From Bacteroidales bacterium (GTDB lineage: Bacteria; Bacteroidota; Bacteroidia; Bacteroidales; UBA932), in contig JAFXNQ010000048.1 in the NCBI GenBank assembly GCA_017529425.1, forward strand, positions 1-58,651: DNA of 58,651 nt, given 5' to 3'. Position 1 is the first letter of the stretch. Each line of letters starts with the position of its first letter. Positions 32,423 through 43,568 of this stretch are shown here, in pieces. The position numbers and the translations under genes were made by a program. The notes beneath the pieces are model-generated. The model was not told where the DNA came from, ran no database searches, and saw only the letters and a list, made by a program, of their open reading frames with translations.

Positions 32423-32494
32423 GGCCCCTTAGTTCAACGGATAGAACGGAGGTTTCCTAAACCTTAGATAGTGGTTCGATTCCACTAGGGGCTA
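32423..32494 (+). tRNA. tRNA-Arg (anticodon CCT)
   Basis: A cloverleaf can be drawn: acceptor GGCCCCT with AGGGGCT (first pair G-U), D stem GTTC with GAAC, anticodon stem GAGGT with ACCTT, anticodon loop TTCCTAA with CCT at 32456-32458, T arm AGTGG-TTCGATT-CCACT and discriminator A. It reads AGG codons. The terminal CCA is not encoded, as is common in Bacteroidota. It lies between two terminators, so it is an independent unit or is processed from the rpmF transcript. Confidence 0.95.
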
Positions 32495-32530
32495 CGAAAA
32501 AAGATTGACGCCAGTCAATCTTTTTTTCGT
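32495..32530 (+). terminator. Terminator after tRNA-Arg
   Basis: Strong hairpin: AAAAAAGATTGAC (32497-32509) pairs with GTCAATCTTTTTT (32514-32526) across a 4-nt loop, with the T tract forming the right arm. Its end overlaps the next promoter. Confidence 0.9.
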
Positions 32531-32537
32531 AAATTTG
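32530..32537 (+). promoter_or_regulatory. -7 promoter element of the TamB/TamA-like gene
   Basis: TAAATTTG, starting at the last base of the tRNA terminator; a TTG at 32505-32507 inside the terminator stem could serve as -33 (22-nt spacing). The leader is 20 nt to the GTG start. Confidence 0.5.
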
Positions 32538-32557
32538 TTGGGGTTGATGGACAGGCT

Positions 32558-35500
32558 GTGAGTAAAAAGAAACTCATCTGGAAGATTCCCGCCGCCGTTG
32601 CGGGCGCTCTGTTAGGGATAGTGCTGATACTGTTAATAGCGTTAACGGTAATCATTTCTACGTCAAAAGCCCGCGTGGCTGTCCTGCAAAGGTGCGTGAC
32701 GGAAATCAATAAAAGAACCAGCCTGGACGTAGATTTGGGAAGACTTTATTTCTCTCCTTTCCACCATTCTGTGAAGAGTTTATACTATGCATACAGGGGC
32801 AGAGGAGATCTGCCGCTGGACATGGATATAGACAAGCTGTTCATCGGCCATCGCGGGCAGGATACGTTGCTCTTTGTGGATGCATTGCGCCTGCGCGGCT
32901 ACATGCAGGGAGATCCGGACGCCGACCTTATGCCCCTCACCGACATCGCCTCCCTCACGGCCCGTAACATAGTTGTGGAGCAGCTTCATCTGGACAGGGT
33001 AACCGTACACTCGGATACCCTTTTATCCTCTATCGGCATTGACGCCATAGTGGATTATCTGCAGTTAAAGAGCCCCGGAATCAATTTGACCAGAGGGGAG
33101 TACCCGCTTCACGGACTCAGAATAGCCGATGCAGATATCGGCATAGAGCTGCAGGAAAAAACCTCTGAGGAGGAGCCGGAGGATACAACATCCACCCCCA
33201 TGGCCTTCCATATTCCGGACGGGCAGATAAGCAATGTGCGCTTTGTCCTCAACCCCAGGGGCCTGGTCTTGCGTGCAGATTCTCTGGATGTAAACGTGCT
33301 GGCAGATGTAGGGAACAACCTCTACGATGTACACCATGTCGCCATTGGTAACTCTTCCCTTGCACTTAAATCTCTGTTCCTGCCTTTTGAGGCAATAGAA
33401 GGAGACGTGCTGGTGGATCTGGACGCCGATCTTCTCCAGTCACGCAACCTGTATGCCCGCTGCGATGCGTTCGGAGCAAATGCAAATCTGCAAGACACAA
33501 GGCTGGACATGGAAACCATGCGCGTAGACCTTGACGGCACTGCCGGTTACCGTGGGAGCAAGGCAAATGTTAAGGGCTTCTATGACATTGACGATGAGCG
33601 CTATGACATGCTGGTGAATCTCCTCAAGATTAACGCCGGCCCCTTCCTGAAGGGGAGCCATAAAGTGAAAGTGACGGGCAATATCCATGCGCAGGGTCAG
33701 GGAATAGACATCCATTCCCCCGCCATAAAGAGTAAAGTGCACGCTCATCTGGCCGATTGTATATATGACGATATCAACGTCTCCGGCCTGGAGCTGGACG
33801 CTTTACTTACCGGCAAAAAGGTGGAGGGGGACCTGAACCTGCCACTCTCCATGACCGGCGACAGCCTGCAAGTATGTGCCCTTTCAAAGCACCGCTTCTC
33901 TGTCAGGAATTTCTTCACACCAAAGCATATAGGCGTAGACTACCATTCGCAGATAAATGACCTGTTGGCACACGTTGCCGGTGAAGACTTGGACATAGAG
34001 AGCCTGAACCTGGACTTCAGCACCGATTCCAGCACCGCTTTCCATGCGGTAACGCAGGGGCTTGACATGGATTTGCAGAGCCCCATGCACGCTATCACGC
34101 TGCTGGATATGGTTAAACCGCTGATGGGCGTGGTCAGGGATTCAAGCTTTGTAAGGTCTATCACCTCCCTGCAGGATCTTACAAGATTGGATACGCTAAG
34201 GCACCTTATTCCTGACCTCAGGGCCGATATCAAGCTTGCGGAGAACAGTCCAGTTCACCCTTTTATCCGGAGTAACGGGCTGGATATCGATAAACTGAAC
34301 CTGTTTTTTGATACCGATTCCCTCCGAACCAATATGATACTGGAAGCCGCCATCCCGGCAATCGGCAATCCGGCCGACAGTGCCGCCCTGCATTTACCCG
34401 CCGCCACGGCGTCAATGCTGCTGAATATGACGGAGGGCAAAACCGCGGCCTCCATCAAGGCCAATTCCAATATCACGGGCGACTTGATGAGTCTGGACAG
34501 GCTTAATACGGACGCCGCGTTCAATCTCGATCTGGTGCGCACAGACAGGAATCTTGGCGGAACGGGACACCTTTCCCTGGACGGCCTGCGCTACAATGAC
34601 ATGGACTTTGGGAACCGTACGGCTGATATCCTCATTTCACCGTCAGAGGCCTATGACAACGCCCTCAGGGCCGATTTGCGTCTGGACGATATCCCCATTG
34701 AAATTGTTGCCGGCATTCTTCACAGGGACGATGTAGACATGACCGGTTTTATCCAGGCAGAAGCTGTAGCTGACGGCCTGCCGGGAAAAATGGATTTATC
34801 GGCCGAATTCGTGCCGCGTGACGTCAGCGTGTTGTATAAGCCGTATAACGTCAAGTTTGGCATTGGAGAGACCCCGGTGGTGATGTCCCATAACGACATA
34901 GATCTTGCTGGCTTGCGTATCTATGGCGCGGACAGTACCTATCTGGCTCTCTACGGCGGCATGAACCTTAATACCAGGCTTATCGATGTCGTACTTTCCG
35001 CCGATAATTTCTCCCCGATGGAGCTGCCTAAGGACGGCCTCATCCCTGTATATGGCCACCTGGCAACTGATGTCAGCGGTCGTGTTACCGGTCCGCTGGA
35101 CGATATCCTTGCCGATGTTGACGTCACCGTACTACCCGCTACGGACATCACCTATCCCATAGACAATAAGAATCTTGCGCAGGTGAGGCCCAGCGGTAAG
35201 GTCAACGTAAAGTACACCTATCCCGACAACCAGACGAACCTTGGCGGAACAATCAACGTGGATGACGGTGTGGTACGCTATTCGCCCCGTCTCTATCCCA
35301 TGATGCCTTTCCTCGTGGATCCTGGAAGCAACGTCACATTCAACGGCCCTTTTAAGCGTACAATGATTGATGTCTCCGCTTCGCAGCAGGTAAAGGCCGA
35401 TGTGGAATCGGTAGAAGAGGAAACCCGCCGCGTGACCTTCAATACCGGAGTGCGCGTGAAGGGGGAGCTTGACTCTCTTGGCCTTGGCGTCATCGGCTTC

Positions 35501-37345
35501 TTTCTTGAAGCCCCTGACGATGAGGTCGTAACGCGTGAGTTAGCTTCCATGGACCAGGAGACCAAAGAGGGCGTGGCGGCGGCGCTTCTGGCCACCGGTA
35601 TGTACATGGGAGCAAGCAATGTAGCCGCGCAAAGGGACGGATACGCATTCTCCAGCATAGTCAACAGCCGCATCAACGCCGCCATGGCCAATTCCAAGAT
35701 GGGAAAGGTCATAGACGTGGATATCAGCAGCGGACAGACGGAGCACGCATCCGGCAGGACCAACGATACCAACATCTCCATCGGCAAATCCCTGTTCGAC
35801 GACAGACTGCGTATCACCGTGGGGTCCGTCATATCCGACAATCCGGATGTGAATAAGGCCAACGGCCTTTTAAGTCAGGTTTCGGCCGATTATAAAATCA
35901 ACAAGTCCGGAAATGTAGTGATGAGAATGTTCTCCCAAAGGGATTACAACAATGTCTTTGAAGGAGAACTTGTCAAGTCTGGTTTGGGCGTGGTGACAAC
36001 AAATGAGTGGAAGAAGGGCATGCATACATACAAGTTCACTACAGATGCAGATATAGCCTATCGTTCCAATAAGAGTATCGGCCCCAACCTTACCCTGACC
36101 CATTCCATCCGCAACCTGCTGGGTCATGGGGAGACGTTCTCCCTGAAGGGCCACGGGGCATACTACTGGTCCCTGCGCGACCGGATGCCCGGTGACTCCC
36201 AGAAAACGGATACGTACAAGATTGGCTTGGACGCCGCCCTGGTTTTCCCGTATCTGCACTGGCCAGGTGACAACAAACCGGACGGCGACACCCGCTACCG
36301 CCTTGGATATAAGTATGAAAACGTTGCCGGCGGATATGGCGTCCACAAGTTATCCGGAGCGCTCTCCTATTTTATCAAGCCCGGAGGCTACGTCACGCAT
36401 ACGTTCACGCCCCTCTATCTTTCCCTGGCGAAGATCAAGGTGTCGGACGATGTCATGTATACCATAGCGGATAATCCTGAAGTCCTCAAGCTGCTGGCCG
36501 GCAACGAACTTATACCTGCCGTCGGCTATGGCGTTACATATAACGATTACCGCTCCTCTCGCGCGGTAAATACCATGATTGACTTTGAAATCAAGGAGGC
36601 GGGTAATCTGACCAATGCCATTTACAGCGCCTTTGGCCACAAGTGGAACGAACTTAACAAAACTATAGGCAATCTGCCTTTCAATCAGTTTGTGAAGCTC
36701 ACGGCTGAGCTGTGGAACAAATTCAATTTCACGGAGCGGGTATGCATCGCAACGCGTCTTTACGCCGGTGCCAATGTGCCGCTTGGAAATTCCGACTCAT
36801 CCCCGCTTTCCGAGGCTTTCTATGCAGGCGGCCCCAACAGCCTGCGTGCGGCGGAGCCTTACGCCTACGGCCCGGGTAACTACCGTAGCACCAAGTTCAA
36901 CCAGTACTACTTCCATTCCGGCGAAGTCAAGATGGAGGCTAACATAGAGTTGCGCTTCCCGCTGGTCTGGAAAATCAACGGTGCTGTTTTCGTTGATGCC
37001 GGTAACGTTTGGAATTTGCGCAATTCCTCAGAGCTGATTCCAGAAGAGGATTATGAGATACTCGCAGAGTTTTTGGGCCTTACGGAGATGATGTATGACG
37101 GCTTTATCAACAATCCCTATCTTGCAAAGCAGATTGCACTTGGCACCGGCGCCGGAATCCGTCTTGACCTTGACGGCCTGGTCATCCGCCTTGACCTTGG
37201 GGTTGGCATTCACGAACCTTACCAGACCTACAAATACGACAAGGAGCTCAAGCCGGATTATACCCAGCCAATCAACACCTATTACAATTTGCCCTCAGTC
37301 CTTGACGGCCTGCGTCTCAACTTTGGTGTAGGATATCCCTTCTAG
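32558..37345 (+). CDS. Giant envelope protein: TamB-like region fused to a TamA/BamA-like outer-membrane barrel
   Basis: A single 1595-residue frame. Residues about 8-33 form an inner-membrane anchor, then an AsmA-like start (STSKARVAVLQRCVTEINKRTSLDVDLGRLYFSP) and a long beta-helical TamB-type region. The TamB C-terminal domain is visible at about 875-1110 (GGTINVDDGVVRYSPRLYP, VDPGSNVTFNGPF, MIDVSASQQVKADV, TNDTNISIGKSLFDDRLRITVGS). From about 1150 an Omp85/TamA-like barrel follows (LTLTHSIRNLLGHGETFSLKG, YAGGPNSLRAAEPYAYGPG at about 1421, VFVDAGNVWNL at about 1478) and ends in aromatic FGVGYPF. No POTRA domain is seen between them. The start is GTG; no in-frame ATG exists nearby. It probably spans the periplasm and helps outer-membrane protein or lipid delivery. 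Confidence 0.9.
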   Translation: MSKKKLIWKIPAAVAGALLGIVLILLIALTVIISTSKARVAVLQRCVTEINKRTSLDVDLGRLYFSPFHHSVKSLYYAYRGRGDLPLDMDIDKLFIGHRGQDTLLFVDALRLRGYMQGDPDADLMPLTDIASLTARNIVVEQLHLDRVTVHSDTLLSSIGIDAIVDYLQLKSPGINLTRGEYPLHGLRIADADIGIELQEKTSEEEPEDTTSTPMAFHIPDGQISNVRFVLNPRGLVLRADSLDVNVLADVGNNLYDVHHVAIGNSSLALKSLFLPFEAIEGDVLVDLDADLLQSRNLYARCDAFGANANLQDTRLDMETMRVDLDGTAGYRGSKANVKGFYDIDDERYDMLVNLLKINAGPFLKGSHKVKVTGNIHAQGQGIDIHSPAIKSKVHAHLADCIYDDINVSGLELDALLTGKKVEGDLNLPLSMTGDSLQVCALSKHRFSVRNFFTPKHIGVDYHSQINDLLAHVAGEDLDIESLNLDFSTDSSTAFHAVTQGLDMDLQSPMHAITLLDMVKPLMGVVRDSSFVRSITSLQDLTRLDTLRHLIPDLRADIKLAENSPVHPFIRSNGLDIDKLNLFFDTDSLRTNMILEAAIPAIGNPADSAALHLPAATASMLLNMTEGKTAASIKANSNITGDLMSLDRLNTDAAFNLDLVRTDRNLGGTGHLSLDGLRYNDMDFGNRTADILISPSEAYDNALRADLRLDDIPIEIVAGILHRDDVDMTGFIQAEAVADGLPGKMDLSAEFVPRDVSVLYKPYNVKFGIGETPVVMSHNDIDLAGLRIYGADSTYLALYGGMNLNTRLIDVVLSADNFSPMELPKDGLIPVYGHLATDVSGRVTGPLDDILADVDVTVLPATDITYPIDNKNLAQVRPSGKVNVKYTYPDNQTNLGGTINVDDGVVRYSPRLYPMMPFLVDPGSNVTFNGPFKRTMIDVSASQQVKADVESVEEETRRVTFNTGVRVKGELDSLGLGVIGFFLEAPDDEVVTRELASMDQETKEGVAAALLATGMYMGASNVAAQRDGYAFSSIVNSRINAAMANSKMGKVIDVDISSGQTEHASGRTNDTNISIGKSLFDDRLRITVGSVISDNPDVNKANGLLSQVSADYKINKSGNVVMRMFSQRDYNNVFEGELVKSGLGVVTTNEWKKGMHTYKFTTDADIAYRSNKSIGPNLTLTHSIRNLLGHGETFSLKGHGAYYWSLRDRMPGDSQKTDTYKIGLDAALVFPYLHWPGDNKPDGDTRYRLGYKYENVAGGYGVHKLSGALSYFIKPGGYVTHTFTPLYLSLAKIKVSDDVMYTIADNPEVLKLLAGNELIPAVGYGVTYNDYRSSRAVNTMIDFEIKEAGNLTNAIYSAFGHKWNELNKTIGNLPFNQFVKLTAELWNKFNFTERVCIATRLYAGANVPLGNSDSSPLSEAFYAGGPNSLRAAEPYAYGPGNYRSTKFNQYYFHSGEVKMEANIELRFPLVWKINGAVFVDAGNVWNLRNSSELIPEEDYEILAEFLGLTEMMYDGFINNPYLAKQIALGTGAGIRLDLDGLVIRLDLGVGIHEPYQTYKYDKELKPDYTQPINTYYNLPSVLDGLRLNFGVGYPF

Positions 37346-37368
37346 CCCTTTTGCCCATCACAAATTAG

Positions 37369-38301
37369 ATGAATCGTCTCTGCAAATTAATCTCCGACTA
37401 TATGGGGGTGCTGGTGCTGCTAGCGGCTGTGCTGGCGCTCTTGTTTCCGGGCTTTTTCTGTCATATTAAGCCCAGTCTTATCAATCCGCTTCTGGGTGTG
37501 ATTATGTTTGGGATGGGCCTTACGCTTCGCGCAGATGATTTTAGGGTCGTGTTCATGCGGCCAAAGGATGTCATTGCAGGCTGCCTGACCCAGTTTACCG
37601 TTATGCCGTTGTTGGCTTTTGCCCTTTCAAAACTATTCTCCCTTGACGAAGCGCTTACCGTGGGAATGATACTGGTGGGCTGTTGCCCGGGCGGCACAGC
37701 TTCCAACGTCATCACATATCTGGCCAAGGGCGATCTGGCACTTTCAGTGGGGATGACGGCGGTTTCTACACTGCTGGCTCCCCTGTTGACGCCGCTGCTG
37801 GTGTTGTTGCTGGCCGGCAAGACGGTGGATGTTGATGTAGTAGGGATGCTTTTGAGTATTCTCTGGGTGGTTATCCTGCCGATAGTTCTGGGGTTGCTGG
37901 TAAAGCGGTTCCTGCCAAAGGCCAGCGACAAGGTGTCCGATTATCTCCCGGCAGTGTCGTCTCTTGCTGTATGTGTCATAGTACTGATAGTGATAGCGGC
38001 CAACGCCCAAAAGCTGCTTTCGAGCGGGCTTGTCATCATGTTTGCGGTAGTACTCCACAATGTCTGCGGACTCGCAATAGGCTATCTCATAGGCGTGGTG
38101 CTGCATATGACGCAGGCCAAGCGCCGGGCTGTCAGTATCGAGGTGGGGATGCAGAACAGCGGTCTGGCGTCATCGCTCGCCAACACCCATTTTGCCGCCC
38201 TTCCGATGGCCACCATCCCCGGCGCCCTGTTCAGCGTATGGCACAACATCAGTGGCGCTATCGTCGCCAGGATTTTCGCATCCGCAAACAGACGCCCGTA
38301 A
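37369..38301 (+). CDS. Bile acid:sodium symporter (BASS) family transporter
   Basis: A 310-residue inner-membrane protein with about ten transmembrane segments. The family signatures are GMGLTLRADDF, VGCCPGGTASNVITYLAKGDLALS and SIEVGMQNSGLASSLA, corresponding to the two crossover motifs that bind sodium and substrate. Bacterial members carry organic anions such as pantoate or other keto acids; the substrate here is unknown. It lies 23 nt after the TamB/TamA-like gene on the same strand and may be read from that transcript. It ends convergent with the next gene. Confidence 0.93.
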   Translation: MNRLCKLISDYMGVLVLLAAVLALLFPGFFCHIKPSLINPLLGVIMFGMGLTLRADDFRVVFMRPKDVIAGCLTQFTVMPLLAFALSKLFSLDEALTVGMILVGCCPGGTASNVITYLAKGDLALSVGMTAVSTLLAPLLTPLLVLLLAGKTVDVDVVGMLLSILWVVILPIVLGLLVKRFLPKASDKVSDYLPAVSSLAVCVIVLIVIAANAQKLLSSGLVIMFAVVLHNVCGLAIGYLIGVVLHMTQAKRRAVSIEVGMQNSGLASSLANTHFAALPMATIPGALFSVWHNISGAIVARIFASANRRP

Positions 38302-38313
38302 ATTCAGGAATCG

Positions 38314-38964
38314 TTATGCTGCGGGTTCTTCTGCCTCAGGAGCGGAGCAGCTTTGTTTCTCTGCCAGTATTGCGTCTGCTTTCTTGGAGAAGAAGTCGTA
38401 CATCACGCCCTGTACTGCCACGATAATTGCGGCACAGAGGAAGCAGGCTATTACTGCCAGGAACGGACCGACTTTGGGGATGACTCCCAGAATCAGACAG
38501 ATGATGAAGATACAGATGACGCAGAGCAAGTTCACAAAGAAGATGCGCCATTTGTTGCCATAGGTGCTGTCGTAGCTGAGGCCGAGCGCCTTGATTGGCG
38601 ATACCTTTTTGTCAATCAAGAAGTAGATGGCAAAAGTCCAGGCGATACCTATCACCAAAGCAGGGATGAGCATGAAAGCAGCGGCGGCAGTAACGCCCAT
38701 GGATATCAGTCCCAGCAGCAGGAAGAATTTACCCAGATTCTTGAAGTTGTCCTTGTCAAAGATGGATACGGGATCTATGACCTCCCCACGTCCGATACCT
38801 ATTACGGCTTTGTATAAGCCGATGGTAGTGCCCACATTCAGATAGGGAATCCAAAATGTGATGATATATAGAATCACCATCAGCAGCAAAGGGAAGAAGT
38901 TCTTGAGACCATACTGGACGCCATCCTTGATGGTCTTCATAATGTCGAGTTTTTCTTTATTCAT
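38314..38964 (-). CDS. Polytopic membrane protein, function unknown
   Basis: A 216-residue protein with a short soluble start (MNKEKLDIMKTIKDGVQYGLKN), four to five long hydrophobic segments (about 24-44, 73-98, 100-120, 142-165, 168-190) and an acidic Glu/Ala-rich C-terminal tail (CSAPEAEEPAA). The pattern of paired helices with GIAWTFAIYFLIDKKVSPIKALGLS resembles DUF975/DUF4013-type membrane proteins, in which the helix pair is followed by P-x-x-A-L-x-x-S. No catalytic residues are seen. The start at 38964 is preferred over 39054 because a -7 element lies between them. Confidence 0.75.
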   Translation of the reverse strand: MNKEKLDIMKTIKDGVQYGLKNFFPLLLMVILYIITFWIPYLNVGTTIGLYKAVIGIGRGEVIDPVSIFDKDNFKNLGKFFLLLGLISMGVTAAAAFMLIPALVIGIAWTFAIYFLIDKKVSPIKALGLSYDSTYGNKWRIFFVNLLCVICIFIICLILGVIPKVGPFLAVIACFLCAAIIVAVQGVMYDFFSKKADAILAEKQSCSAPEAEEPAA

Positions 38965-38989
38965 AGCTATTTGTGTTGAATTGGTAACC

Positions 38990-38997
38990 CAAATATA
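38990..38997 (-). promoter_or_regulatory. -7 promoter element of the membrane protein gene
   Basis: TATATTTG on the minus strand, 25 nt from the ATG at 38964. Confidence 0.6.
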
Positions 38998-39043
38998 CCT
39001 TATTTTGCGTGAACCTTCAAGTAATATGTGGGCTGAAAATGAA

Positions 39044-39051
39044 TATATTTG
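39044..39051 (+). promoter_or_regulatory. -7 promoter element of the CPBP protease gene
   Basis: TATATTTG, 31 nt upstream of the ATG at 39083. Confidence 0.6.
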
Positions 39052-39082
39052 CAACAGAAATTGAATAAAAGTGTATTTCTAT

Positions 39083-39779: not shown

Positions 39780-42700
39780 TCAAGCCTTTCTGTATTCGTT
39801 GGGGGTGACTCCGTATTTCTTCTGGAATTCACGGTAGAACCAGGTCCTGCTTGAGAAACCGCAGGCATATATTATCTCCTGGACCGTCTTGCGTGTGGTT
39901 TTCAGCAATCGGGCGGCATTTTCAAGGCGGATGTGCCTTATGTATTCAGTAGGACTCATATTGACTGTCTCTTTCAGTTTACGGTAGAGTTTCATCTTGC
40001 TCACCGCAATTTCTGAGGCGATGTCTTCTACAGAGAGATCTTCATTGTCCATATTTGCAATAATCACATCTGTGATGTGGATAATCAGATCCTTGTCTTC
40101 GTTTTTTACCATGTTGCCCTCAAACTGCTGTACGGCCGCGTGGGCAGATTCGCTGTACTCCTTGATTATTTGGCCATGCCCGATGAGGCGGTCCACCATG
40201 GCGACGAGGTGGCGCGGGCTGAAAGGTTTGCCTATATATGCGTCGGCTCCGCTCTCAATGCCCTCTATCTGGTTTTCGAGCGAACTGCGGGCGGAGAGAA
40301 GGATGAACGGGATGTGGCGCGTGGCGGGGTTGTCTTTTACCGCCCTGAGGAGTTGGTTCCCGTCCATACCGTCCATCATAACGTCGCTTATGATGAGTAC
40401 CGGCTGCCGCCTGGATATCTGTTTCAGAGCCTCTTCTCCATCGCCGGCCTCCATTACGTTGAACCGAGAGCGGAACAGGCTGCAGATGAAATCCCGTATG
40501 TCGGGATTGTCGTCAACAACGAGAATATCCCTGTTGAAGACGGTGCCCGGGGTGTCATCTTCATCCAAAGGGGCGGCGGCGACATCTGCATCAGGCTTGT
40601 TATCTACTGTTTCAGCTATTTGAGAAGTAACCTCCTGCCACGGCAACGACACTGTGAAAGATACGTAAGAAGAGCCGTCTGAATCGGGAACGATGCTGCC
40701 GCCAAGGGCCTCTGCAAGGCTTTTGCAGAGCGACAGGCCGATGCCGTTGCTCACGTGCCCCCTGGAGATCTCTTTTTCGAACCGTTCGAGCACAGCATAA
40801 CGGTCAAAAACTCTTGCCATCTCCCTCCGCGTGATTCCTACGCTGGTATTTGTGACCTTGACCACCAGTTTGTTCCCTTTTGCCTCATAGTCCAGCGACA
40901 TTACGCCTCCTGCCGGAGTGTATTTTATGGCATTTGAGACAAGGTTGAACAATATCTTCTCAAGGCAAACGCTGTCTGTATTCCACATGAGAGGATCTTT
41001 GGCCATTTTCAGGCCGATGCCAGACTGCTCCGCCTTGTCGCGGAAAAGAGAGATGATTCTTGCTGCGAGCTGATCAACTTGGACGGGAGTAATCTTTACA
41101 GTAAGATGGCCGTTCTCCGCCTTGCGGAACATTATCAACTCGCGAATGAGCGCCTGCATCCTCTCTGAATTGGATTCTATGACATCAACGCAGTGCTTCT
41201 GGGCAGAAGTCAGTTTGCGGTCCTGATGCAGCTGCTCGCAGGGGCCGGTAATGAGTGTGAGGGAGTTGGAGAATTCATGTGCTATGTTGGTGAAGAACTG
41301 CAGCTTTCCTTCGTGGACATCTTCTATGGTCTGCATCCTTGCCTTGTAGCGGAAGAATCTCAGAATCTGCCATGCAAGAAGCAGGAATAGTATTATGTAT
41401 AAAGCCCTGGCCGGAGTGCTGGCATACCATTTGGGCAGGACTTTTACCTTCATGCGGTATGACTGTGGATTCCATCGTCCTTCTGCATTGGTGCAGCGCA
41501 CGTTGAGGGTGTAAGTCCCCGGTTTGAGATTGGAAAAAACCATCAAGTCCGATGATGATCCGAGCCTGACCCATTCTGAGTTGAATCCGTCCAGTCGGTA
41601 CGATAATTCGCACCGGTGGGAGTAGATGTAGTCCAGCGGTACAAAGCTGAAGCTCAGGGTGGTGTATTCAGGCTTTACCGTCAGGGTCCCGTCTTGCATG
41701 TTTCTGTCCATCGGAACCCTCTCGTTATCCATGTACACGGCGTAGAGGAACAGATTGGGGAACCCTCCGGCGCTTTTGAGCTCTGCAGGGTCAAAACTGC
41801 TGAAGCCATGTATGCCGCCAAAGTATATCTTCCCCCGACCCAGGAAGCACGCCCCGTCGGAGAATTCATTGTCTTGAAGACCGTCCTGGAGATAATAGGA
41901 TGAATATGCTTCTCCATCGTAAGAGATACGGCAGAGGCCGTGGCTGGTCCCGGCCCAGATGTCTCCGTCTATCTCAGCGACAATGCCGTGGATGGTGGCA
42001 TTGGGCAAGCCGTCCTCTTTGGTGTAGCGTCGCAGGACCTCTCCACTGGAGTCCATGTGATAGAGGCCAGTGGAGGAACCGGCCCAAATGGTGCCGTCGG
42101 GAGCCTCTTCGAGGCAGATGACATCGTATGCCCCTTCGTGAGAGGAGATTGTGCCGTCGGCAGATATGGATCTCAGGCCGCCGCCACGGGTGCCGACCCA
42201 GATGGTTCCGTCTGAACTCTCTTTCACAGAATAAACCACATAGCTTCCAAGCTGGCCAGCCCCGTAGTTGGTGAAGCCGGCCGGCTCCAGGGCATTGAGT
42301 GTCACTAAGTAGAGCCCGCTGCCGCTGGTTCCGGCAATCATCCTGCCGTCACGCGTGAAATGTATGGAATATACCGACCTTAGGAGCGGGTCAACCTGAA
42401 AGAGCTTCAGGCAGCCGCGTTTTATGCATGCTATTCCGACTCCGTCGGTGCCTGCCCATACATAGCCGTCGTGGTATTCGAGAGAATAAACGGAGTTATC
42501 CGGCAGGCCGTCTTCAGTAGTTATGTTCCTTACCAAATCGCCGCTTTGGGAGAATACAAAGATGCCGGAACCTTTTGTCCCGACATACAGCAACCCGTCA
42601 TCGTCCTGGGTGAAGCAGCGTACCGCGCTCCCTCCGAATAAATCTGTTACCGTGTTAAACTCGTCCCTTGCCGGGATAATCTGGGCTACGCCGCGCATAT

Positions 42701-43568
42701 CTGTGCCTGCCCAAATAATACCCTGGCTCCCGGCATATACGACAAGGACGGGCATGCCCGATATCACCGTCTCTGCTGCAGAGTCCATATCGGTGAACCT
42801 GTATAACCCGGTTGAAGTCGCCACCAGAATACCGTCATCATACTGAGATACTGCGTTGACAATTCCATCTACATCCATCCTGTGCCGTGTGCCGGATACG
42901 GGGGCAACCGACTCCAGCACTGAAGACCCGTTCCTCTGAAAGGCGATGTTTGACCCTATGCGGAAAATATCGGCGACTCCAGATGCGATATCTTTATCCT
43001 TACCCTGTATTAACCGTGAATCTTTGGTGCAAATGAACGGGATGCCATCGACGCTCACCATGAACCTGCGGATTCTCCATGGATAATCCTGAAGAAGGAC
43101 AAAAGCCCCGTTTTCGTATCTGTAAACGCCCTTGCCATCTACAGAGGCGCACACCATACCGTAGTCGAAGCAAAGGTGGAATGCCTGCTCCGATTCTACA
43201 TGCTGCGCTTCTTCTGTGAAGTAATGGGTAAAGACCCCCTGAAACGGATCGTATCGGTCAATTCCGCGGTCGGTGGAGACCCAGATAAAGCCCTGGTCAT
43301 CTTCCCCGATCTCCCTTATGACATTGTTGCATATAGAGGTCTCATCGGAAGGATCGGGCACGAAAGAAAAGAACCACCTTCCGTTCCAGCAGTTGAGACC
43401 ATCCCACGTCCCCATCCAGATTATCCCCTGGGAGTCCTGGAACAGTGCCGTCACGGAGCTGTTTGAGAGCCCGTCGGCACTTGTCAGATACTTGACAGAA
43501 TATTGCGCTGCACTTGCAAATAAAGTGTACAGAAGCAGAAAGTGTACTGTTATGAAACGTTTGTACAT
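39780..43568 (-). CDS. Hybrid two-component system sensor/regulator (HTCS) of the PUL
   Basis: A 1262-residue one-protein signalling system. In order: signal peptide (1-21), two-component regulator propeller repeats (about 25-640, many WxGTxxGL units), Y_Y_Y domain (about 643-706), one transmembrane helix (about 722-740), HisKA with phospho-acceptor His in IAHEFSNSLTLI (about 763), HATPase (NLVSNAIKYTP, about 878), receiver domain (VVDDNPDIR at about 1012; acceptor Asp in ISDVMMDGMDG) and a C-terminal AraC-type DNA-binding domain ending VTPNEYRKA. The H-box lacks the usual Pro (FSNSL instead of FRTPL). It senses a glycan fragment in the periplasm and should activate the divergent PUL genes through the repeats at 43584-43646. 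Confidence 0.96.
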   Translation of the reverse strand: MYKRFITVHFLLLYTLFASAAQYSVKYLTSADGLSNSSVTALFQDSQGIIWMGTWDGLNCWNGRWFFSFVPDPSDETSICNNVIREIGEDDQGFIWVSTDRGIDRYDPFQGVFTHYFTEEAQHVESEQAFHLCFDYGMVCASVDGKGVYRYENGAFVLLQDYPWRIRRFMVSVDGIPFICTKDSRLIQGKDKDIASGVADIFRIGSNIAFQRNGSSVLESVAPVSGTRHRMDVDGIVNAVSQYDDGILVATSTGLYRFTDMDSAAETVISGMPVLVVYAGSQGIIWAGTDMRGVAQIIPARDEFNTVTDLFGGSAVRCFTQDDDGLLYVGTKGSGIFVFSQSGDLVRNITTEDGLPDNSVYSLEYHDGYVWAGTDGVGIACIKRGCLKLFQVDPLLRSVYSIHFTRDGRMIAGTSGSGLYLVTLNALEPAGFTNYGAGQLGSYVVYSVKESSDGTIWVGTRGGGLRSISADGTISSHEGAYDVICLEEAPDGTIWAGSSTGLYHMDSSGEVLRRYTKEDGLPNATIHGIVAEIDGDIWAGTSHGLCRISYDGEAYSSYYLQDGLQDNEFSDGACFLGRGKIYFGGIHGFSSFDPAELKSAGGFPNLFLYAVYMDNERVPMDRNMQDGTLTVKPEYTTLSFSFVPLDYIYSHRCELSYRLDGFNSEWVRLGSSSDLMVFSNLKPGTYTLNVRCTNAEGRWNPQSYRMKVKVLPKWYASTPARALYIILFLLLAWQILRFFRYKARMQTIEDVHEGKLQFFTNIAHEFSNSLTLITGPCEQLHQDRKLTSAQKHCVDVIESNSERMQALIRELIMFRKAENGHLTVKITPVQVDQLAARIISLFRDKAEQSGIGLKMAKDPLMWNTDSVCLEKILFNLVSNAIKYTPAGGVMSLDYEAKGNKLVVKVTNTSVGITRREMARVFDRYAVLERFEKEISRGHVSNGIGLSLCKSLAEALGGSIVPDSDGSSYVSFTVSLPWQEVTSQIAETVDNKPDADVAAAPLDEDDTPGTVFNRDILVVDDNPDIRDFICSLFRSRFNVMEAGDGEEALKQISRRQPVLIISDVMMDGMDGNQLLRAVKDNPATRHIPFILLSARSSLENQIEGIESGADAYIGKPFSPRHLVAMVDRLIGHGQIIKEYSESAHAAVQQFEGNMVKNEDKDLIIHITDVIIANMDNEDLSVEDIASEIAVSKMKLYRKLKETVNMSPTEYIRHIRLENAARLLKTTRKTVQEIIYACGFSSRTWFYREFQKKYGVTPNEYRKA

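Follow-up and report, generated by a model that had tools for sequence, protein, structure and literature searches.

Can the two halves of a TAM, a TamB protein and an Omp85 barrel, be combined in a single polypeptide and, if so, where does such a protein come from and what would it do? As a rule, these partners are two distinct proteins, one located in the inner and the other in the outer membrane. This question is raised by a gene at 32558..37345 (+) in a 58,651-nucleotide contig of a Bacteroidales bacterium (JAFXNQ010000048.1, assembly GCA_017529425.1), the whole of which was analysed and is called the window below. The gene starts with GTG and comprises 1595 codons with 0 internal stops. 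Judged by its sequence, it is a single intact gene for an anchored TamB-type part (residues 1 to ~1151) that continues into a TamL-type Omp85 barrel (1156-1595). The N-terminal hydrophobic segment (residues ~4-36; 32567..32665, +) aligns with the N-terminal anchor of TamB2 proteins, the hhalign match starting at residue 3, and is followed by the predicted periplasmic TamB-type part (residues ~37-1151; 32666..36010, +), delineated by alignments and a profile, and most strongly conserved from residue ~840. The barrel (36023..37342, +) is of the TamL2 type, ends with the residues GYPF, and was recognised by Pfam, NCBIfam and profile comparison.

The initial annotation had described TamB and a TamA-like barrel, covalently linked in one chain of 1595 amino acids, with a continuous frame and no POTRA domain, and these points were borne out. 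In a Pfam scan the sole match of the window protein was the Omp85 barrel PF01103 (residues 1376-1593, E 2e-18, 67.5 bits versus a gathering threshold of 24), which was also found at E ≤0.1 in all 13 fusion proteins scanned (best E 1.2e-24). The NCBIfam model for TamL, NF052279, aligned with its positions 334-747 to residues 1156-1595 (E 3.7e-97), and the score of 326.6 bits is lower than the curated threshold of 400, the first 333 positions of the model being unmatched; the TamA model NF047950 gave 11.8 bits, below its cut-off of 625. The Omp85 signature positions were invariant in 13/13 fusions, i.e., GG, N, S, R and A of GGPNSLRA, and D, A, G, N and W of DAGNVW. When the barrel half was compared with 8 TamL2 proteins by hhalign (E 2.2e-85), residues 1156-1595 corresponded to residues 360-771 of the TamL2 of locus L085, in which a POTRA match is located at 293-355, just ahead of the aligned portion. 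The Pfam POTRA model (PF07244) matched 0/13 fusion proteins versus 3/3 separate TamLs scanned as controls (L004, L085, L126), and a lipoprotein signal (lipobox) before the barrel was absent, as the barrel directly follows the TamB part.

The TamB half was detected in another way. PF04357 (TamB) gave no match in the window protein and matched only 2/13 fusion proteins (best E 5.1e-20), with strong matches in 4/4 separate TamBs scanned (L075, L085, L091, L126). However, an hhalign comparison of a profile of 13 fusions with 8 separate TamB2 proteins gave a probability of 100 and an E-value of 1.6e-88 over 1101 columns, running from residue 3 up to template column 1558 of 1590, almost the whole length, by which alignment the TamB half is a genuine TamB homologue. 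Of the Pfam searches suggested in the initial annotation, those for the barrel and for POTRA therefore came out as expected, and the one for TamB did not; since PF04357 misses the window protein, this check alone would have overlooked the TamB half. A search of solved structures returned only weak BamA/TamA matches, and an AlphaFold2 model of residues 840-1595, built from an alignment of 6 sequences, was unusable (mean pLDDT 30.1, pTM 0.26), so that the barrel, its strand number and the strand pairing rest on homology.

The genome that contains the window is a draft of 68 contigs with 92% completeness, and the fusion was seen in 0/25 same-genus genomes, although one of this genus, G014, holds a 96-residue piece at a contig edge that matches the barrel end and is too short to judge. 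Both facts would fit a missed stop, a frameshift, a chimeric assembly or a contaminant contig. Against such an artefact, the identical type of fusion was present in 17 other loci. A scan of species genomes yielded five loci (L010-L014) that are 60-74% identical; the match spans residues 1-1595 in four of them and residues 47-1595 in L011, whose fusion is truncated by the contig end. All are recorded as Bacteroidales or Bacteroidia MAGs, two of them from goat or yak rumen. A family survey with the TamB part gave strong matches in 9/398 genomes, the window's own counted, and in the 8 others the fusion occupies a single frame of 1499-1590 residues that aligns through to the end of the barrel with 29-62% identity. 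In an order survey with a model of the junction, 5/393 genomes, again including the window's own, contained the junction in one frame, and the fusion frames of the other four (G613, G497, G680 and G639; 1592-1691 residues) belong to three families other than that of the window. This brings the total to 18 fusion sequences. Surveys of the class and the phylum (395 genomes each) revealed no fusion beyond the window's own; these are samples that overlap the others in part, and the model was built from this fusion group, so that an unrelated fusion could escape it. Among the sampled genomes, the fusion was thus found solely within the order of the window.

In codon comparisons with L010, L011, L012, L077 and L121, dN was much lower than dS for every part of the gene in all five pairs, with synonymous sites near saturation in the more distant ones (window versus L010: dN 0.159 and dS 1.19 overall, dN 0.117 and dS 1.36 for the barrel). 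TypA, encoded nearby on the contig, shares 99% identity with the TypA of two same-genus genomes, which indicates that the contig belongs to its genome, and the contig is collinear with that of the sister genome G025 on both flanks. These results argue against an artefact, which we regard as virtually out of the question, and confirm that the fusion is real and conserved rather than a sequencing slip.

The junction (35960..36070, +), located by the TamB end-strand motif, consists of the last TamB strand (~1135-1151), a short turn, and barrel strand 1 (~1157-1171), strand assignments that derive from a comparison with the termini of TamB2 and TamL2 as separate proteins. The TamB end-strand motif is present here in 18/18 fusions and the barrel motif pattern in 16/18; L122 and L123 lack the latter pattern, yet are aligned there. 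In the 16 fusions that match both patterns, the motifs are 23 to 33 residues apart. In 8 separate TamB2 proteins examined, the last strand is followed by an extra tail of variable length. The weld would accordingly lie between the two strands that make up the hybrid barrel in the cryo-EM structure of E. coli TamAB, namely the last one of TamB and the first one of the barrel.

To trace the origin of the fusion, a barrel tree was built with 50 rows, leaving out duplicate locus copies, the truncated L089 and the partial match L041, with midpoint rooting only. The 18 fusions formed one clade (100/100) and grouped with the TamL2 of 6/8 adjacent TamB2-TamL2 pairs (100/100), apart from 23/24 TamLs labelled canonical. 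Outside this group fell the TamL2 of L088 and L090, as well as L020, which carries a canonical label and whose neighbour was unchecked; the two pairs L088 and L090, 2/8, count against a reading of such pairs as the nearest relatives. In a TamB tree (33 rows, without frames of <1000 residues, and with L089 labelled TamB1 though it is an adjacent pair), the fusions again came out as one clade (100/100) whose main inner groups repeat those of the barrel tree; the TamB2 proteins from L088 and L090 were placed among canonical TamBs, with a long-branch warning. Since the fusions are one clade in both trees, they are most simply explained by a single join event, after which both halves would have travelled together. 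TamB-side relatives are not confined to fusions, as 57/393 genomes of the order survey, counted by hand from the survey listing, contained a strong match to this side (E below 1e-29) that stays on one side of the junction. Of 9 adjacent TamB2-TamL2 pairs that were read, 7 overlap or abut (L085-L089, L125, L127) and two have gaps (L090, L126), with start codons taken mechanically. As the reading frames mostly overlap or abut, the fusion would require just an in-frame loss of the TamB2 tail and the first ~360 residues of TamL2. These data support a descent of the fusion from the Bacteroidota TamB2-TamL2 operon, in which the TamB2 tail and the TamL2 signal and POTRAs would have been lost. The derivation from TamA and TamB implied in the initial annotation is thereby revised: the Omp85 barrel stands, but belongs to the TamL2 type, and the partners are those of a TamB2-TamL2 pair.

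A survey of related genomes for the same fusion and for an absence of separate tamA and tamB genes had also been suggested. The fusion was found in relatives, as described above, but the absence was not. A canonical TamL above the curated cut-off was present in 13/13 fusion genomes tested; other matches to the TamL model in these genomes were the fusion itself and weak ones of ≤31 bits, mostly in frames of BamA size. A separate TamB was found in 8/9 fusion genomes, that is, in all 8 besides the window's own (in G394 in a 1264-residue frame); this test covered the nine fusion genomes of the window's family, whereas the TamL test also included the four of other families, and the L010-L014 records lie outside both. 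The window genome holds a separate canonical TamL and a BamA-like protein as well, and no separate TamB was seen in this draft with the Pfam model, a same-genus TamB or a 5-row TamB model, which may reflect a draft gap or a real loss. Replacement of the canonical TAM by the fusion was therefore ruled out for the fusion group, and the fusion is an extra system.

The fusion lies directly downstream of a tRNA-Arg (CCT) gene (32423..32495, +). In 8 same-genus loci (L103 was left out), the match to the window breaks off within 32495-32509, at the tRNA 3' end or shortly beyond it, and only in G025 is it regained, at 39057; the tRNA gene thus marks a variable site. The stretch 32496..39056, unmatched at the corresponding site of G025, contains three genes: the fusion, an SBF-family transporter (37369..38301, +) that starts 24 bases past the fusion stop and is perhaps co-transcribed with it, and an EI24/CysZ-like protein (38314-39054) that scores below the Pfam cut-off. 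There is no integrase among them, and the GC content is unremarkable. Upstream of the fusion, TAAATTTG at 32530..32537 (+) weakly resembles the consensus of the Bacteroidales -7 promoter box. By eye, the T-stem of the window tRNA-Arg differs from that of all 8 relatives by paired changes. The 3' part of the tRNA gene may have arrived with the inserted element, for which an altered but paired T-stem would be expected. In L012, the fusion likewise follows shortly after a tRNA-Arg (CCT).

No conserved genomic partner was seen, as neighbours vary by locus except among close relatives, and none of the other fusion loci in the comparison showed a relative of the SBF transporter or the EI24/CysZ-like protein. 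In L122 (3821-6409) and L123 (3333-5921), both of one family, a large gene adjoins the fusion, encoding MscS-type mechanosensitive channel domains in the case of L122. The site that holds the fusion in the window is occupied in G025 by a 233-residue protein (L097, 4043-4744), a relative of which adjoins the L010 fusion and gives no Pfam match. Further along the window, 39780-43568 (-) encodes a 1262-residue protein that, by sequence, looks like a hybrid two-component regulator. A plasmid collection contained 12 matching records; among the 8 listed, none covers >80% of the query, and some of the matches listed have a TamB gene beside an Omp85 gene. Plasmid entries of Phocaeicola, Bacteroides and Parabacteroides (OY725984.1, NZ_OY725944.1 and NZ_OY725768.1) match both halves of the fusion, and in the two annotated entries among them the match spans a TamB gene and an Omp85 gene.

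Several comparisons bear on the spread of the fusion. Across families within the main group, fusion barrels share 62-77% identity, against 30-38% for the canonical TamL barrels of the same genomes, and in four genomes of genus g46 the fusions are 71-79% identical versus 43-54% for TamL. Because conservation is generally higher in fusions than in TamL, the reverse case is the telling one: G317 and G347, both of genus g46, share 54% identity in TamL and only 49% in their fusions, and the G317 fusion has 77% identity with the fusion of G613, a member of another family. In AU tests, trees with the six g46 fusions together were rejected (p-AU 1.1e-66), as was a single clade for the nine fusions of the window's family (p 0.0011); the groups match taxonomy but were picked after inspection of the tree. 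The simplest reading of these sequence relationships is that the fusion has been transferred horizontally between lineages and families, though an old duplication followed by many losses might also account for them.

How would such a protein work? We propose that the fusion is a covalently locked hybrid-barrel TAM of a single chain and one origin, accessory to the ordinary system and horizontally spread, and assign this reading a probability of about 0.6. An in-frame deletion across a TamB2-TamL2 pair would have occurred once, removing the C-terminal tail of TamB2 together with the lipoprotein signal and POTRAs of TamL2. By homology, the chain would then run from an inner-membrane anchor through the periplasm as a TamB-type groove into an outer-membrane Omp85 barrel, presumably bridging both membranes, with the last TamB strand joined via the short turn to strand 1. 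Strand 1 of an Omp85 barrel begins at the periplasmic side, so that a TamB last strand leading into it via a few residues would make a periplasmic hairpin.

According to the cryo-EM report, E. coli TamAB adopts two states, one of which is a hybrid barrel of TamA strand 1 and the last strand of TamB that is suggested to serve phospholipid transport (PMC12800296). Because these two strands pair there, the fusion most likely fixes the hybrid state; in the fusion they are adjacent in the sequence and would be paired as well. A permanent hybrid state could make both POTRAs, for docking, and the lipid anchor dispensable. Deletion of POTRA 2 of TamA was lethal in E. coli in the assay described in the same text (PMC12800296), so that a POTRA-less TAM must function differently. 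A permanently occupied lateral gate would favour lipid transfer along the TamB groove over insertion of client barrels, with lipid as the probable cargo, and the fusion would act beside ordinary TamL/TamB as an accessory system. Counting against a locked strand 1, a predicted TamL-TamB hybrid barrel has TamB paired with the last TamL strand, unlike the E. coli structure (PMC12045153). The further-reaching version, a gate-locked, dedicated lipid bridge that is rooted in both membranes, inserts no proteins and is passed horizontally among Bacteroidales, is offered tentatively, at somewhat short of even odds.

Alternatively, the linkage might serve as a tether only, ensuring 1:1 delivery from the TamB part, and the barrel, closed on itself, would be a TAM insertase of the ordinary kind with a small number of clients (outer-membrane proteins or lipoproteins). 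The invariance of the Omp85 signature positions in 13/13 fusions is in line with this, as is the assembly of outer-membrane proteins by TAM in vitro, reported in PMC11341756. However, the last TamB strand is just a short turn away from strand 1, where clients would pair (PMC12800296), and POTRA was not found, which makes a self-closed insertase unlikely in our view. A periplasmic cut, after which TamB and the barrel would meet as in the two-gene system, would agree with the variable length of the joint, but no conserved cleavage motif was apparent there by eye, and the freed barrel would have neither a lipobox, nor POTRAs, nor the TamB tail, so that the two-gene form would not be recreated; we consider such a precursor highly improbable. 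The locked hybrid barrel is thus the reading that we prefer.

Compared with known systems, the fusion is closest to the TamB2-TamL2 operon of Bacteroidota (described in PMC12045153), which encodes both protein types in the order seen here and is the nearest kin in both trees. Yet, this operon comprises two genes, with a lipoprotein signal and POTRAs in TamL2 and a C-terminal tail in TamB2, all of which the fusion lacks, and the TamB2 proteins examined exceed the TamB part of the fusion by ~370-480 residues. The E. coli TamAB hybrid state resembles the fusion in that the strands that pair there are those joined here, but TamAB has two chains, three POTRAs and two states (PMC12800296), whereas the fusion has one chain, no POTRA and presumably one state. 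Canonical Bacteroidota TamL and TamB share the same kinds of domains, but are separate proteins that coexist with the fusion, and are essential in F. johnsoniae according to PMC12045153. There was no report of a fused TamB-TamA or TamB-TamL among the open-literature matches listed, a scope that leaves subscription papers and preprints aside, and the fusion is a variant of TAM for which no published report was found in the open literature examined. Outside bacteria, TIC236-TOC75 of chloroplasts likewise combines a TamB-type bridge with an Omp85 barrel, but these are two proteins, with POTRAs, that form a protein import system.

The role of TAM is debated, the candidates being lipid movement, protein insertion, or both in two states. 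A natural, POTRA-less, single-chain TAM, joined at the strands that define one of these states, amounts to a ready-made locked mutant. It reveals which parts a TAM can lose and provides a 1:1 construct for structural work. The fusion is also a handle on TamB2-TamL2, on whose function the authors of PMC12045153 report no insight, and as a single protein it would physically span the inner membrane, the periplasm and the outer membrane.
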